Source: Phycisphaeraceae bacterium (GTDB lineage: Bacteria; Planctomycetota; Phycisphaerae; Phycisphaerales; UBA1924). From it: a stretch of DNA of 64,000 nucleotides. Positions 32,702-46,050 of the stretch are shown here, piece by piece. Numbering within the stretch: position 1 is the first letter of the stretch; every line of letters starts with the position of its first letter. A program made the position numbers and the translations under genes. Where the stretch lies: positions 62,001 through 126,000 of the forward strand of contig JAHBXE010000010.1 of NCBI GenBank assembly GCA_019636625.1. The letters are read 5' to 3'. The notes under the pieces were generated by a model. That model saw only the letters and a list, made by a program, of their open reading frames with translations, made no database searches and was not told the origin of the DNA.

Positions 32702-33339
32702 ACTTCGTCGGTCGCGGCGGCCAGAAACTGGCCCACGCCCTCTCCACCTTCTCCATCTCCCCCGCGGGCCTCACCTGCGCCGACCTCGGCTGCAACGTCG
32801 GCGGTTTCTCCGACTGCCTCCTCCAGCACGGCGCCGCCCGCGTCTACGCCGTCGACACCGGCTACGGCGCGCTGGCCTGGAAGCTCCGCAACGACCCCCG
32901 CATCGTCGTCATGGAGCGGACCAACGCCCTCCACGCCGCGCCGCCCGAACCCGTCGACCTCGTCGTCATCGACCTCGGCTGGACCCCCCAGCGCCACGCC
33001 ATCCCCGCCGCCCTCACCTGGCTCAAACCCTCCGGCCGCATCATCTCCCTCATCAAACCCCACTACGAAATCCATAAATCAGAGTCTGCCACCCTCCTCC
33101 ACGCCGGCGTCCTCGCCGATCCCGACGCCCAGCGCATCGTCGACCGGGTGGTCGCCGAACTCCCCTCCCTCGGCGTCGAGGTCCGGGGCCTCACCCGCTC
33201 CCCCATCGCGGGCGGCGCCTCCAAGGGAAACAAGAAGGGCAACGCCGAGTGGCTCGTCCATCTTCAGCCACTTCCCCCTCCCCCGACACCCAGCCCAACT
33301 CTCCCCCATCCCACCACCTCCAACTCCCCCAGCCCCTGA
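32698..33339 (+). CDS. TlyA-like FtsJ-fold methyltransferase lacking an S4 domain
   Basis: 213 residues from the GTG at 32698, which overlaps the lpxI stop (GTGA). It begins with NFVGRGGQKLAHAL, the SRGG.KL motif that follows the S4 domain in TlyA, then the SAM-binding motif CADLGCNVGGFSDCLLQHGA, VYAVDTGYGALAWKLRNDPR and LVVIDLGW. A full TlyA (about 270 residues) starts with an S4 RNA-binding domain, which is absent here. The last ~22 residues are Pro/Ser/Thr-rich and the stop codon lies inside the first hairpin of the adjoining repeat array. Probable 2'-O rRNA methyltransferase or relative. Confidence 0.75.
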   Translation: MNFVGRGGQKLAHALSTFSISPAGLTCADLGCNVGGFSDCLLQHGAARVYAVDTGYGALAWKLRNDPRIVVMERTNALHAAPPEPVDLVVIDLGWTPQRHAIPAALTWLKPSGRIISLIKPHYEIHKSESATLLHAGVLADPDAQRIVDRVVAELPSLGVEVRGLTRSPIAGGASKGNKKGNAEWLVHLQPLPPPPTPSPTLPHPTTSNSPSP

Positions 33340-33580
33340 AAGGGGCTCGCGATGGTTGCCAGTGGTGGCTCTGCACCACTTGTCACCACCTCCCCAACTG
33401 CCCCGTACCCCTGAAAGGGGTACGCGATGGTTGCCATTGGTGGCTCCGCACCACTGGTCAGCACCCGCCTCAACATCCCAGCCCCTGAAAGGGGCTCGCG
33501 ATGGTTGCCAGTGGTGGCTTTGCACCACTGGTCAACACCTCCCCAACTCCCCCGTACCCCTGAAAGGGGTACGCGAAGCC
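33331..33580 (+). repeat. REP-like hairpin array 1, 3' side of the RAYT gene
   Basis: Two alternating hairpins, H1-H2-H1-H2-H1-H2-H1. H1 copies lie at 33331-33347, 33404-33424, 33480-33496 and 33553-33573: arms AGCCCCT/AGGGGCT or CGTACCCCT/AGGGGTACG around a GAA loop. H2 copies lie at 33359-33382, 33434-33457 and 33508-33531: arms CCAGTGGTG/CACCACTGG with a six-base loop and few mismatches. Each H1 is joined to H2 by CGCGATGGTTG, while the last H1 is followed by CGAAGCC instead. The arms change in a compensating way between copies, so folding seems to be maintained. The array overlaps the 3' end of the methyltransferase gene. Confidence 0.9.
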
Positions 33581-33581
33581 C

Positions 33582-34028
33582 TCATTCCAAGAACTCCGCC
33601 CGAAACTCCACCCCATGCCTCCTCAACAACTCCTTGAACTCATCGAGCGATCCAAACTTCCGGTGGTGCTCCTTCTGGTTCCTGATGTAGGCCGCCACTT
33701 CATCGCACGCGGAACTGCTCACGGTAAACCCGCCATACCCCTGCTGCCAGGCAAACTCCCGCAGCCCAATGCTCTCATGAATCCACTCCGACGACCGCTT
33801 CTTCACATGCCGCAGCATGTCCGCCGGCGCCAGGTCCGCCGGAAACCTCGCCAGAAAGTGAAGATGATCCTCCATCCCGTTGATCGCGATAGGCACGCAC
33901 CGCAAGTCCTTCAGCACTCCACCGACAAACGGATAAAGCCTCTCCTGCAACTCAGCGTCGATCCACGAAGAACGCAACTTCGTGCTGAACACCGCATGGT
34001 ACAGATTCTGCGTCCATGAACTGGGCAT
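33582..34028 (-). CDS. RAYT: REP-associated tyrosine transposase (Y1 family)
   Basis: 148 residues from the ATG at 34028 (MPSSWTQNLYHAVFSTK). The Y1_Tnp/IS200-like fold is recognisable: the HUH motif is HLH at 55-57 in NGMEDHLHFLARF, and the catalytic Tyr is probably Tyr-114 in DEVAAYIRNQKEHH. Upstream FAWQQGYGGFTVS is the usual WQ.GYG.F.V block. These single-copy domesticated transposases process REP hairpins. Here hairpin arrays flank the gene on both sides in opposite orientations, the expected RAYT-REP arrangement. The gene ends two bases from array 1 and starts 18 bases from array 2. Confidence 0.9.
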   Translation of the reverse strand: MPSSWTQNLYHAVFSTKLRSSWIDAELQERLYPFVGGVLKDLRCVPIAINGMEDHLHFLARFPADLAPADMLRHVKKRSSEWIHESIGLREFAWQQGYGGFTVSSSACDEVAAYIRNQKEHHRKFGSLDEFKELLRRHGVEFRAEFLE

Positions 34029-34045
34029 GGCGCGAGTGTACGATC

Positions 34046-34146
34046 TTTCGCAGACCCCTTTCAGGGGTGTGCGCCCCAGACCCACGCCCGATTCCAGGCA
34101 TGCCAAGCCATGCCTGGCAACCACCGCCAGACCCTTTCAGGGGCTC
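34046..34146 (-). repeat. REP-like hairpin array 2, 5' side of the RAYT gene
   Basis: Inverted relative to array 1. Read on the minus strand: H1 at 34144-34129 (AGCCCCT/AGGGTCT, one mismatch), a linker ending GGTTG, H2 at 34117-34094 with arms CCAGGCATG/CATGCCTGG, then a closing H1 at 34068-34054 (ACCCCT/AGGGGT) followed by CTGCGAA. The H2 arms differ from array 1 at three neighbouring positions and both sides changed together. The closing H1 lies within 30 bases of the RAYT start codon and would be in its mRNA leader if transcription begins upstream. Confidence 0.85.
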
Positions 34147-34218
34147 CGATCTGAGAGACGGCGAAACATCACTTCGCGAGGGGGCCCGGAAGGGACCAGT
34201 TCCAACGCCAGTTCCCCT

Positions 34219-35274
34219 TCACCCGCCCCCGACCCCCACCGGCTTCCACCCCTCCACCTTCCCCTCCACCGGGTGCAACATCCCCCACAGCCGCTCCAGC
34301 AGGTCCTTCATCCCCTGCCGCGCCGCCCCGCTGATCGCCAGCACCGGCTCCCGATGCCCCAGCTTCAGCTTCCGGCACACCTCGTCCACCTTCGCCTTCC
34401 GCTCCGCTTCATCCGGCACCAGGTCCATCTTGTTCAGCGCGATCACTTCCTGCTTCTCCGCCAGCAGCGGCGAATACCCCGCCAGCTCCGCCCGGATCTT
34501 CCGGTAGTTCTCCACCGGGTCCGATCCGTCCACCGGCGCGATATCCAGCAGGTGCACCAGCACCTTCGTCCGCTCCACGTGCCGCAGAAACTCGTGCCCC
34601 AGCCCCGCCCCGTGCGATGCCCCCTCGATCAGCCCAGGGATGTCCGCCAGCACGATCCGCCGCGTCTGGTCCAGCTCCGCGATCCCGAGCTGCGGCGACA
34701 GAGTCGTAAACGGGTAATCCGCAATCTTGGGTGTCGCCCGCGTCAGCGCCGACAGCAGCGTGCTCTTCCCCGCGTTGGGAAGCCCGATGATCCCCACGTC
34801 CGCGATCAGCTTCAACTCCAGCCTCAGGCGGACCCGCGGCCCCGGTTCTCCCGGCTCGGCCTGCCGCGGCGTCTGGTTCGTGCTCCGCTTGAAGTGCTCA
34901 TTCCCGAACCCGCCTCGCCCGCCCTTGGCGATCACCACCCGGTCCCCGGGCTTGAGGTCGCACAGCAACGCCCCGCTCTCCGCCTCGTACACCATCGTCC
35001 CCGGAGGCATCCGGATGATGCAGTCCTTCCCCGCCAACCCCGACTGCTGCTTGGCCCGCCCCGGCTCCCCATCCTGCGCCGACCAGTGGTGCTGCCCGCG
35101 AAAGTCGAACAGCGTGTTCACGTTCTCATCCGCCGCCAGGACCACCGACCCGCCGTCTCCCCCGTTCCCCCCATCGGGCCCCCCCTTGGGAACGTACTTC
35201 TCGCGCCGGAACGACACAGCGCCCCGCCCGCCGTTCCCCGCCTTCACCTCAATCTCAGCTTGATCGACAAACAC
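34219..35274 (-). CDS. obg: Obg/CgtA ribosome-associated GTPase
   Basis: 351 residues. The glycine-rich Obg fold occupies residues 1-158 (AGNGGRGAVSFRREKYVPKG, GGPDGGNGGDGGSV, KGGRGGFGNEHFK). The G domain follows with G1 GLPNAGKST (164-172), G3 ADIPGLIEGAS and G4 NKMDL; the latter part ends soon after the G domain, so the variable OCT domain is missing, as in several phyla. Obg is essential for 50S maturation and stress signalling. It lies 35 bases downstream of the PilZ gene. Confidence 0.96.
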   Translation of the reverse strand: MFVDQAEIEVKAGNGGRGAVSFRREKYVPKGGPDGGNGGDGGSVVLAADENVNTLFDFRGQHHWSAQDGEPGRAKQQSGLAGKDCIIRMPPGTMVYEAESGALLCDLKPGDRVVIAKGGRGGFGNEHFKRSTNQTPRQAEPGEPGPRVRLRLELKLIADVGIIGLPNAGKSTLLSALTRATPKIADYPFTTLSPQLGIAELDQTRRIVLADIPGLIEGASHGAGLGHEFLRHVERTKVLVHLLDIAPVDGSDPVENYRKIRAELAGYSPLLAEKQEVIALNKMDLVPDEAERKAKVDEVCRKLKLGHREPVLAISGAARQGMKDLLERLWGMLHPVEGKVEGWKPVGVGGG

Positions 35275-37909: not shown

Positions 37910-38005
37910 GCCCCTGAAAGGGGCTCGCCAAGGTTGCCAGTGGTGGCTCTGCACCACTGGCCCGCCCCACTCCTTCGTGCCACACCCCTGAAAGGGGTTA
38001 GCGAA
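37910..38005 (+). repeat. REP-like hairpin array 3, remote from the RAYT gene
   Basis: Same architecture as the RAYT-flanking arrays, 3.9 kb away: H1 at 37910-37924 (GCCCCT/AGGGGC), linker TCGCCAAGGTTG, H2 at 37937-37960 (CCAGTGGTG/CACCACTGG, perfect), spacer, closing H1 at 37984-37998 (ACCCCT/AGGGGT) followed by TAGCGAACGCC. The H1-H2-H1 order and the GCGAA after the closing H1 match arrays 1 and 2, so the mobile or selected unit is probably the whole H1-H2-H1 cassette. Confidence 0.88.
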
Positions 38006-43878: not shown

Positions 43879-44014
43879 CAAGTGAAGCCTGCCCGTCCGA
43901 AGCTGTACGCGCCGCGTAGGGTACCAGTAGGACCGGGTGGGCTTTTCCTTTGGCTAAGCAATCTGCAATTGTGCCGACATCCATCGGCCGGTAGTCATGG
44001 TACCCTGACCAGGT

Positions 44015-45937: not shown

Positions 45938-46050
45938 GCGGCACGAGCGGTCTTTCAGACTGCTGTGGGATGGGGTTGTCGCTCTCGGGGGTGTCGCTCG
46001 CCGGGCCTCGCTTCACGCCCCGGCTATTGACGATCAGACCTTCGGTCTGA
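45938..46050 (+). repeat. 113-bp two-hairpin dispersed repeat, copy A
   Basis: Begins GCGGCACGAGC, then hairpin CGGTCT-TTC-AGACTG, a variable 23-base stretch, the conserved block GGGGGTGTCGCTCGCCG plus GCCTCGCT and CACGCCCCGGCTA, and ends with the perfect hairpin TCAGACC-TTC-GGTCTGA. Copy B at 63147-63259 has the same length and the same conserved blocks. It abuts the truncated methyltransferase. The CTTTCAG core of its first hairpin resembles the H1 hairpins of the RAYT-linked arrays. Confidence 0.85.

Follow-up and report, generated by a model that had tools for sequence, protein, structure and literature searches.

The window analysed here, a stretch of 64,000 nucleotides on contig C2 of a planctomycete genome of 3.7 Mb in 41 contigs, contains a small transposase gene with arrays of hairpins on both sides, and this arrangement raises the question of what the hairpins are to the enzyme: a substrate that it mobilises, the ends of an element that carries the gene along, or structures that serve in RNA or in other ways without any mobility.

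The protein gave a Pfam Y1_Tnp match of 77.3 bits, and both the HUH motif and the catalytic tyrosine are present, with H55, H57 and Y114 kept in relatives. The HLH motif named in a first-pass annotation of this DNA is H55-L56-H57, and the Tyr-114 that it named is in place as well. The same annotation called the enzyme a RAYT, a label that had to be given up: the Y---NP motif of classical RAYTs (class 2 TnpAREP) is absent, YIRNQKEHH being found instead, and the NCBIfam model REP_Tyr_transpos gave 20.3 bits with a cut-off of 80. The model transpos_IS200 gave 55.5 bits, barely above its cut-off of 55, and the closest solved structures are those of class 1 enzymes (2f4f, IS608 TnpA; for the IS200/IS605 enzymes IS608 and ISDra2 the entries are 2a6m, 2vhg and 2xm3, with E about 1e-5). 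The motifs DHLH, WQ and YIRNQKEHH and the length of 148 aa are those of subclass 1.2 of Quentin et al. 2018, whose survey describes enzymes of about 148 aa with DHxH, WQ and Y---Q--HH, low copy number and diverged paralogues, "no" REP and generally none of the typical IS200 terminal structures, found mostly in Cyanobacteria and Bacteroidetes (PMC6006769). Judged by these motifs and profile scores, the window transposase is a TnpA-Y1 of subclass 1.2 and not a classical RAYT. A defence system was considered too, and PADLOC gave no match.

Downstream of the gene, the stretch 33331-33572 (+) contains four H1 hairpins with three H2 hairpins between them, the pattern recurring every 74-75 nt, and upstream there is a single inverted H1-H2-H1 unit at 34145-34054 (-) (Table 1). 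At this locus H1 has a stem of 6-8 bp with the loop GAA, and H2 spans 24 nt, with GTTG immediately before its stem. The hairpins named in the first-pass annotation were all found in place, in arrays of opposite orientation, and they do form when folded as single-stranded DNA (z-scores of -5.8 to -2.1 compared with dinucleotide shuffles). What it called a "GGTTG linker" is more aptly a foot of four bases, GTTG, set directly against the H2 stem, and the repeating unit, which it took to have two hairpins, has three. Three further units that were absent from that annotation lie dispersed in the window (37910-37998, 63259-63156 and 46050-45947).

Table 1. Transposase gene, flanking hairpins and dispersed units in the window.
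Feature	Position	Strand	Basis
H1 hairpin 1, downstream array, AGCCCCT-GAA-AGGGGCT	33331..33347	(+)	sequence, ssDNA fold
Foot GTTG at H2 base (NTAG/GTTG feet across relatives)	33355..33358	(+)	
H2 hairpin 1	33359..33382	(+)	family alignment
H1 hairpin 2, GTACCCCT-GAA-AGGGGTAC, arms compensated	33405..33423	(+)	family alignment
Foot GTTG	33430..33433	(+)	
H2 hairpin 2	33434..33457	(+)	family alignment
H1 hairpin 3, H1a of the gene-proximal unit	33480..33496	(+)	ssDNA fold
Foot GTTG	33504..33507	(+)	
H2 hairpin 3	33508..33531	(+)	family alignment
H1 hairpin 4, H1b, adjoining the stop codon	33554..33572	(+)	ssDNA fold; model R1 match 33482-33569, E 5.6e-10
TnpA-Y1 gene, 148 aa, subclass 1.2 type; HUH (H55/H57), W94-Q95, Tyr-114, Y---Q--HH	33582..34028	(-)	Pfam, NCBIfam, motif, alignment
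H1b of the upstream unit, ahead of the start codon	34054..34068	(-)	ssDNA fold
H2 of the upstream unit, CCAGGCATG...CATGCCTGG, compensated	34094..34117	(-)	family alignment
Foot GTTG of the upstream unit	34118..34121	(-)	
H1a of the upstream inverted unit	34129..34145	(-)	ssDNA fold
Dispersed H1-GTTG-H2-H1 unit, same family as the arrays of the window gene	37910..37998	(+)	ssDNA fold, sequence
Second dispersed unit of the L001 family, foot ATAG	45947..46050	(-)	model match E 0.0026
Dispersed H1-GTAG-H2-H1 unit, family of the C23 paralogue L001	63156..63259	(-)	model match E 5e-8

Relatives of the gene were taken from a GTDB genome scan (80) and from matches in 88 of 392 Planctomycetota genomes, and about 110 of them, from Planctomycetota, Acidobacteriota, Verrucomicrobiota, Bacteroidota and Proteobacteria, were tested; Y---Q--HH was carried by 107 of the 110 loci examined. 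In the plan that they share, the gene stands between two mutually inverted units, each with H1b proximal to it, and the unit consists of H1a, a linker of 10-13 nt ending in the foot, H2, a spacer of about 22 nt (usually 19-24) and H1b. The feet counted across relatives were GTAG (48), ATAG (31), TTAG (28), GTTG (13) and AAAG (10), and on the foot strand 163 of 286 H1 loops were GNA triloops, a loop type known from very stable DNA mini-hairpins. When each upstream flank was compared with its own gene's downstream flank in reverse complement, 73 of 104 loci scored above the 99% mismatched-locus null, versus 27 loci when the test was made in direct orientation. H1-foot-H2-H1 parses scoring at least 18 were obtained for 62% of the flanks; on the wrong strand the figure was 23%, and for shuffled sequence 1.9%. 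Model R1, built from 20 units, was applied to 48 genes, and correctly oriented matches lay upstream (+) of 42 and downstream (-) of 37 of them, Bacteroidota included, in our own tally, in which five of the 48 loci had also supplied training rows. The inverted layout, which the first-pass annotation had regarded as a planctomycete version with two hairpin types per unit, is on these sequence comparisons general for TnpA-Y1 subclass 1.2 in several phyla.

The arms of the hairpins differ between copies and remain complementary. In an alignment of eight copies of the family from this genome, 93.8% of the stem cells pair, compared with 36-53% when partners were slid by 1-3 columns, and double changes are present in six pairs, a number reached by none of 500 shuffles. 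Double changes were found in 17 of 18 pairs of a 20-row alignment, the rows of which had been picked by the parser; in alignment A2 a few rows with a 19-nt H2 are off by one column. Given that the flank parser selects for pairing, covariation was judged on the independent flank: the structure derived from a gene's upstream flank was applied to its downstream flank, where 44 of the 89 cells that had changed (49%) were Watson-Crick double changes, versus 1-3% with slid partners. Hairpin structure is thus preserved by compensatory change, as the first-pass annotation had read from the arms.

A second regularity concerns the letters at +10 to +12 nt 3' of the H1 loop centre, which agree between H1a and H1b within units with values of 0.82/0.85/0.53 and between loci with lower values of 0.36/0.68/0.28. 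This trinucleotide is a candidate family-specific cleavage or joining site, and in that role it would account for the sharing of H1 hairpins in tandem arrays like that of the window. No simple rule leading from foot to trinucleotide was seen by eye, and the guide role of the foot is putative, proposed by analogy, with the foot giving no obvious prediction of the trinucleotide.

The description of the transposase as single-copy holds within the window but not in the genome, where nine Y1_Tnp matches were found. Four of these are of the Y---Q--HH type: the window gene, one gene on contig C37 and two on C23, of which one is frameshifted. Each Y---Q--HH paralogue is bracketed by its own inverted H1/H2 arrays, which differ in sequence and are alike in plan. 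The frameshifted gene (L004, G000:C23:151507-151710) lies about 2.3 kb from an intact paralogue, and the duplicated inverted units that flank it are 93-95% alike. Units were found well beyond the genes, as the mobile cassettes supposed in the first-pass annotation would have it: the covariance model of the unit gave 29 matches in this genome, and an exact pattern search located more H1-GTTG-H2-H1 units on contigs C18, C34 and C41 and one in the window, these pattern-found copies being solo and not paired. With two units of the C23 paralogue's family present in the window, units occur on a contig other than that of the cognate gene. The REP/RAYT-like view of function, drawn from compensated structure and copies elsewhere, is therefore retained and only the RAYT label is dropped.

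Comparison of relatives showed the same dispersal and also turnover. Genomes with the gene have 9-83 model matches, versus 0-18 (mostly 0) in relatives without it (one-sided Mann-Whitney, p = 1e-4), and the value of 18 belongs to a genome, G381, in which no subclass 1.2 gene was found at E <= 1e-12. Inverted pairs of about 200 nt that lack a gene and are arranged as around the gene are present in G205, G381 and G171, and as dispersed inverted pairs with a short centre they are of the REPIN type. The 200-nt pair of G205 is absent between the same two genes in its congeners G381, G327 and G333; the breakpoints are inexact, with about 75 nt of further length difference, in intergenic flanks too different between the congeners to show an exact insertion site or a target duplication. 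Beside near-identical genes, the downstream arrays of G217 and G358 measure 383 and 97 nt, respectively, a difference of 286 nt.

One could regard such a locus as an insertion sequence or a MITE source, in which the units would be terminal inverted repeats and the gene would move along with them, and the occurrence of paralogues within one genome and in distant phyla is what such an element would leave behind. The three intact Y---Q--HH paralogues are, however, only 36-56% identical, where an active insertion sequence is expected to have near-identical copies, each has its own repeat family, units far outnumber genes, and the ends of IS200/IS605 are not inverted around the gene. In genus g80, solo units lie within a larger element that has its own 17-nt terminal inverted repeats, which would also suit this explanation; some dispersal may thus have another transposase as its driver. 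For the locus as a whole we consider an insertion sequence or MITE source unlikely. At L218, L219 and L222 (G153), the elements around the solo units measure about 150 nt and their 17-nt terminal inverted repeats are AATGTCATTGAATTAAG, as if the units belonged to a second kind of mobile element.

Part of the unit is already catalogued as RNA. RF01687 (Acido-Lenti-1) is listed in Rfam as an sRNA gene with function unassigned, and was rated as probably RNA by Weinberg et al. 2010 (PMC2864571). Its 46-nt model corresponds to the reverse complement of the H1a-linker-foot-H2 half of a TAG-type unit, without H1b, and its gathering score of 37 bits was reached by flanks of several TAG-type relatives and by none of the units in the window, those with GTTG feet included. 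Among 392 Planctomycetota genomes, scored for presence or absence of RF01687 from at most 15 candidates per genome and with gene calls that depend on the threshold used, 77 had both, 11 the gene only, 22 RF01687 only and 282 neither (Fisher p = 7e-49, phylogeny uncorrected). In 128 kb around 20 genes, all nine RF01687 matches were within about 250 nt of the gene.

These units might therefore be structured RNAs, as the Rfam entry has it, or cis-regulatory RNA hairpins on the transposase mRNA, for which compensatory change would be equally expected; the downstream unit may also be co-transcribed with the gene. Against this, units occur on either side of the gene and in either orientation, and they form inverted pairs and solo intergenic copies far off; Rfam models the strand complementary to the one that bears the conserved foot, most H1 loops read on the foot strand are GNA triloops, and no promoter-like signal was found, so that an RNA function appears quite improbable. 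Most likely RF01687 is one half of a mobile DNA repeat, taken from its other strand, and not a dedicated RNA gene. Moving this orphan family from RNA to DNA elements would touch every genome annotation that calls an sRNA there.

A role without mobility would be that the units are TnpA targets or regulatory sites for housekeeping, e.g. in the processing of single-stranded DNA at replication forks, and the low gene copy number and long retention typical of subclass 1.2 would fit such a role; given that unit number and position differ between close relatives and that inverted pairs lie at unrelated loci, we consider it very unlikely. That the hairpins are bidirectional terminators or mRNA-stabilising palindromes accumulated around the gene is hardly credible: the inverted palindromic flanks are G+C-rich and lie 5-60 nt from the gene ends, and such effects are possible for known REPs, but no terminator-like site was found in 33200-34300, a fixed three-hairpin order, foot, set spacings and shared trinucleotide are not needed for termination, and the H1-foot-H2-H1 plan is missing around the class 2 Y1 genes of this genome, whose palindromes are of other kinds.

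The explanation that we consider probable is a REPtron-like single-stranded DNA system, in which the subclass 1.2 TnpA would recognise and mobilise the units. As the sequences show, the gene is flanked by inverted copies of a tripartite unit composed of H1a, a family trinucleotide, the foot (NTAG, here GTTG), H2, about 22 nt, H1b and the same trinucleotide. TnpA would bind the unit only as a single strand, as on the lagging-strand template, with H2 as the hairpin and the foot as the guide, on the pattern of IS200/IS605 and REP; Tyr-114 would cut at the trinucleotide that follows an H1 hairpin on its 3' side, the ends would be rejoined, and units or REPIN-like inverted pairs would thereby reach new sites in trans, by copying or by relocation, with the gene itself remaining in place. 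These steps of recognition, cleavage and joining are proposed here by analogy with TnpAREP, in which GTAG acts in recognition and in the choice of cleavage site. We also lean towards the wider view that subclass 1.2 TnpA is one half of a cross-phylum mobile system of single-stranded DNA, that its three-hairpin substrate would be cut at the trinucleotide after each H1, and that Acido-Lenti-1 would be a fragment of the DNA unit, not an RNA.

Several known systems resemble the locus in part. REPtrons with TnpAREP (RAYT) enzymes of class 2, subclasses 2.2-2.8 (PMC6006769, PMC8266576), likewise have a single Y1 HUH gene, inverted palindromes, a tetranucleotide foot (GTAG and variants), dispersed copies, inverted pairs (BIME/REPIN) and one repeat family per enzyme, and the RAYT trait of inverted hairpins with a GTAG-like foot and dispersed copies is found here with GTTG and in most relatives with GTAG, ATAG or TTAG. 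The enzyme differs, being class 1 by motif and NCBIfam score, and so does the repeat, since a REP is a single hairpin whereas the unit here has three and a shared trinucleotide 3' of each H1. The features of the enzyme are shared with subclass 1.2 of Quentin 2018, but inverted units were found here around most genes, and the subclass was common in Planctomycetota and Acidobacteriota. IS200/IS605 TnpA (IS608, ISDra2) has the same fold family and hairpins with a 5' guide tetranucleotide, but the left and right ends of those elements are on one strand; an insertion sequence of this kind (subclass 1.1) was rejected for the window gene because its paralogues are diverged and its flanks inverted, and neither near-identical gene copies nor same-strand end hairpins were found. 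No tnpB was seen in the flanking sequence read. Class 3 TnpA-Y1 is similar in its phyla (Planctomycetes, Acidobacteria), atypical flanking hairpins and dispersed copies, but has the motif YV[VI]xEQ and the foot CnGA; the window protein, with YIRNQKEHH and a GTTG foot, was excluded from this class by its motif. The TIRYT/TIRtrons (Di Nocera 2013 PMC3733652) also have inverted repeats that bracket a Y1 gene, some of them in dispersed families and a few being double palindromes, but their enzymes are mostly of subclass 2.1 with C-terminal HTH domains and their repeats share a motif of their own, GGGGWSAS. No earlier report of a system like that of the window was found in the open-access literature, which was the scope of the search. 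What is new is the three-hairpin unit and the new reading of the Rfam family; the working is REPtron-like and the enzyme class 1. A large TnpA-Y1 subclass without a prior substrate thereby gains a candidate substrate and a testable mechanism, and class 1 (IS-like) enzymes are linked to a REPtron-like way of life.

Foot type follows the enzyme. On the enzyme tree the foot types require 7 changes, versus 13.5 in shuffles, and GTTG feet are confined to one clade, which holds the window gene, the C37 paralogue and other Phycisphaerales. Residues that separate this clade from its TAG sister clade exist in the alignment, the candidates for reading the foot being N8, Y10, F34, C44, L66, G99 and G100, and the change of TAG into TTG that one enzyme clade underwent can serve as a natural experiment on the reading of the guide. 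The tree mixes the phyla, as would be expected from horizontal transfer, with the qualification that metagenome bins are numerous among the records and some of the organisms may be misnamed.

Three observations were made apart from the subclass 1.2 system. Within the leucyl-tRNA synthetase gene of this genome (L009, G000:C23:82744-82968, about 1191-1843) a Y1 domain of class 2 type (YIVFNP) lies in frame at the entry to the editing domain, between 21-nt perfect inverted repeats, and the reading frame stays open. Ahead of another class 2 type Y1 gene (L007, G000:C5:1027-1257; YIHHNP), nearly identical repeats (GTGGCACTGGCCACA...) form an array through which a repetitive reading frame stays open. 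In the window itself, 43883-43946 (+) matched the Rfam family DUF3800-VIII RNA with 42.6 bits (gathering score 40.2), just 5' of an ORF on the same strand.
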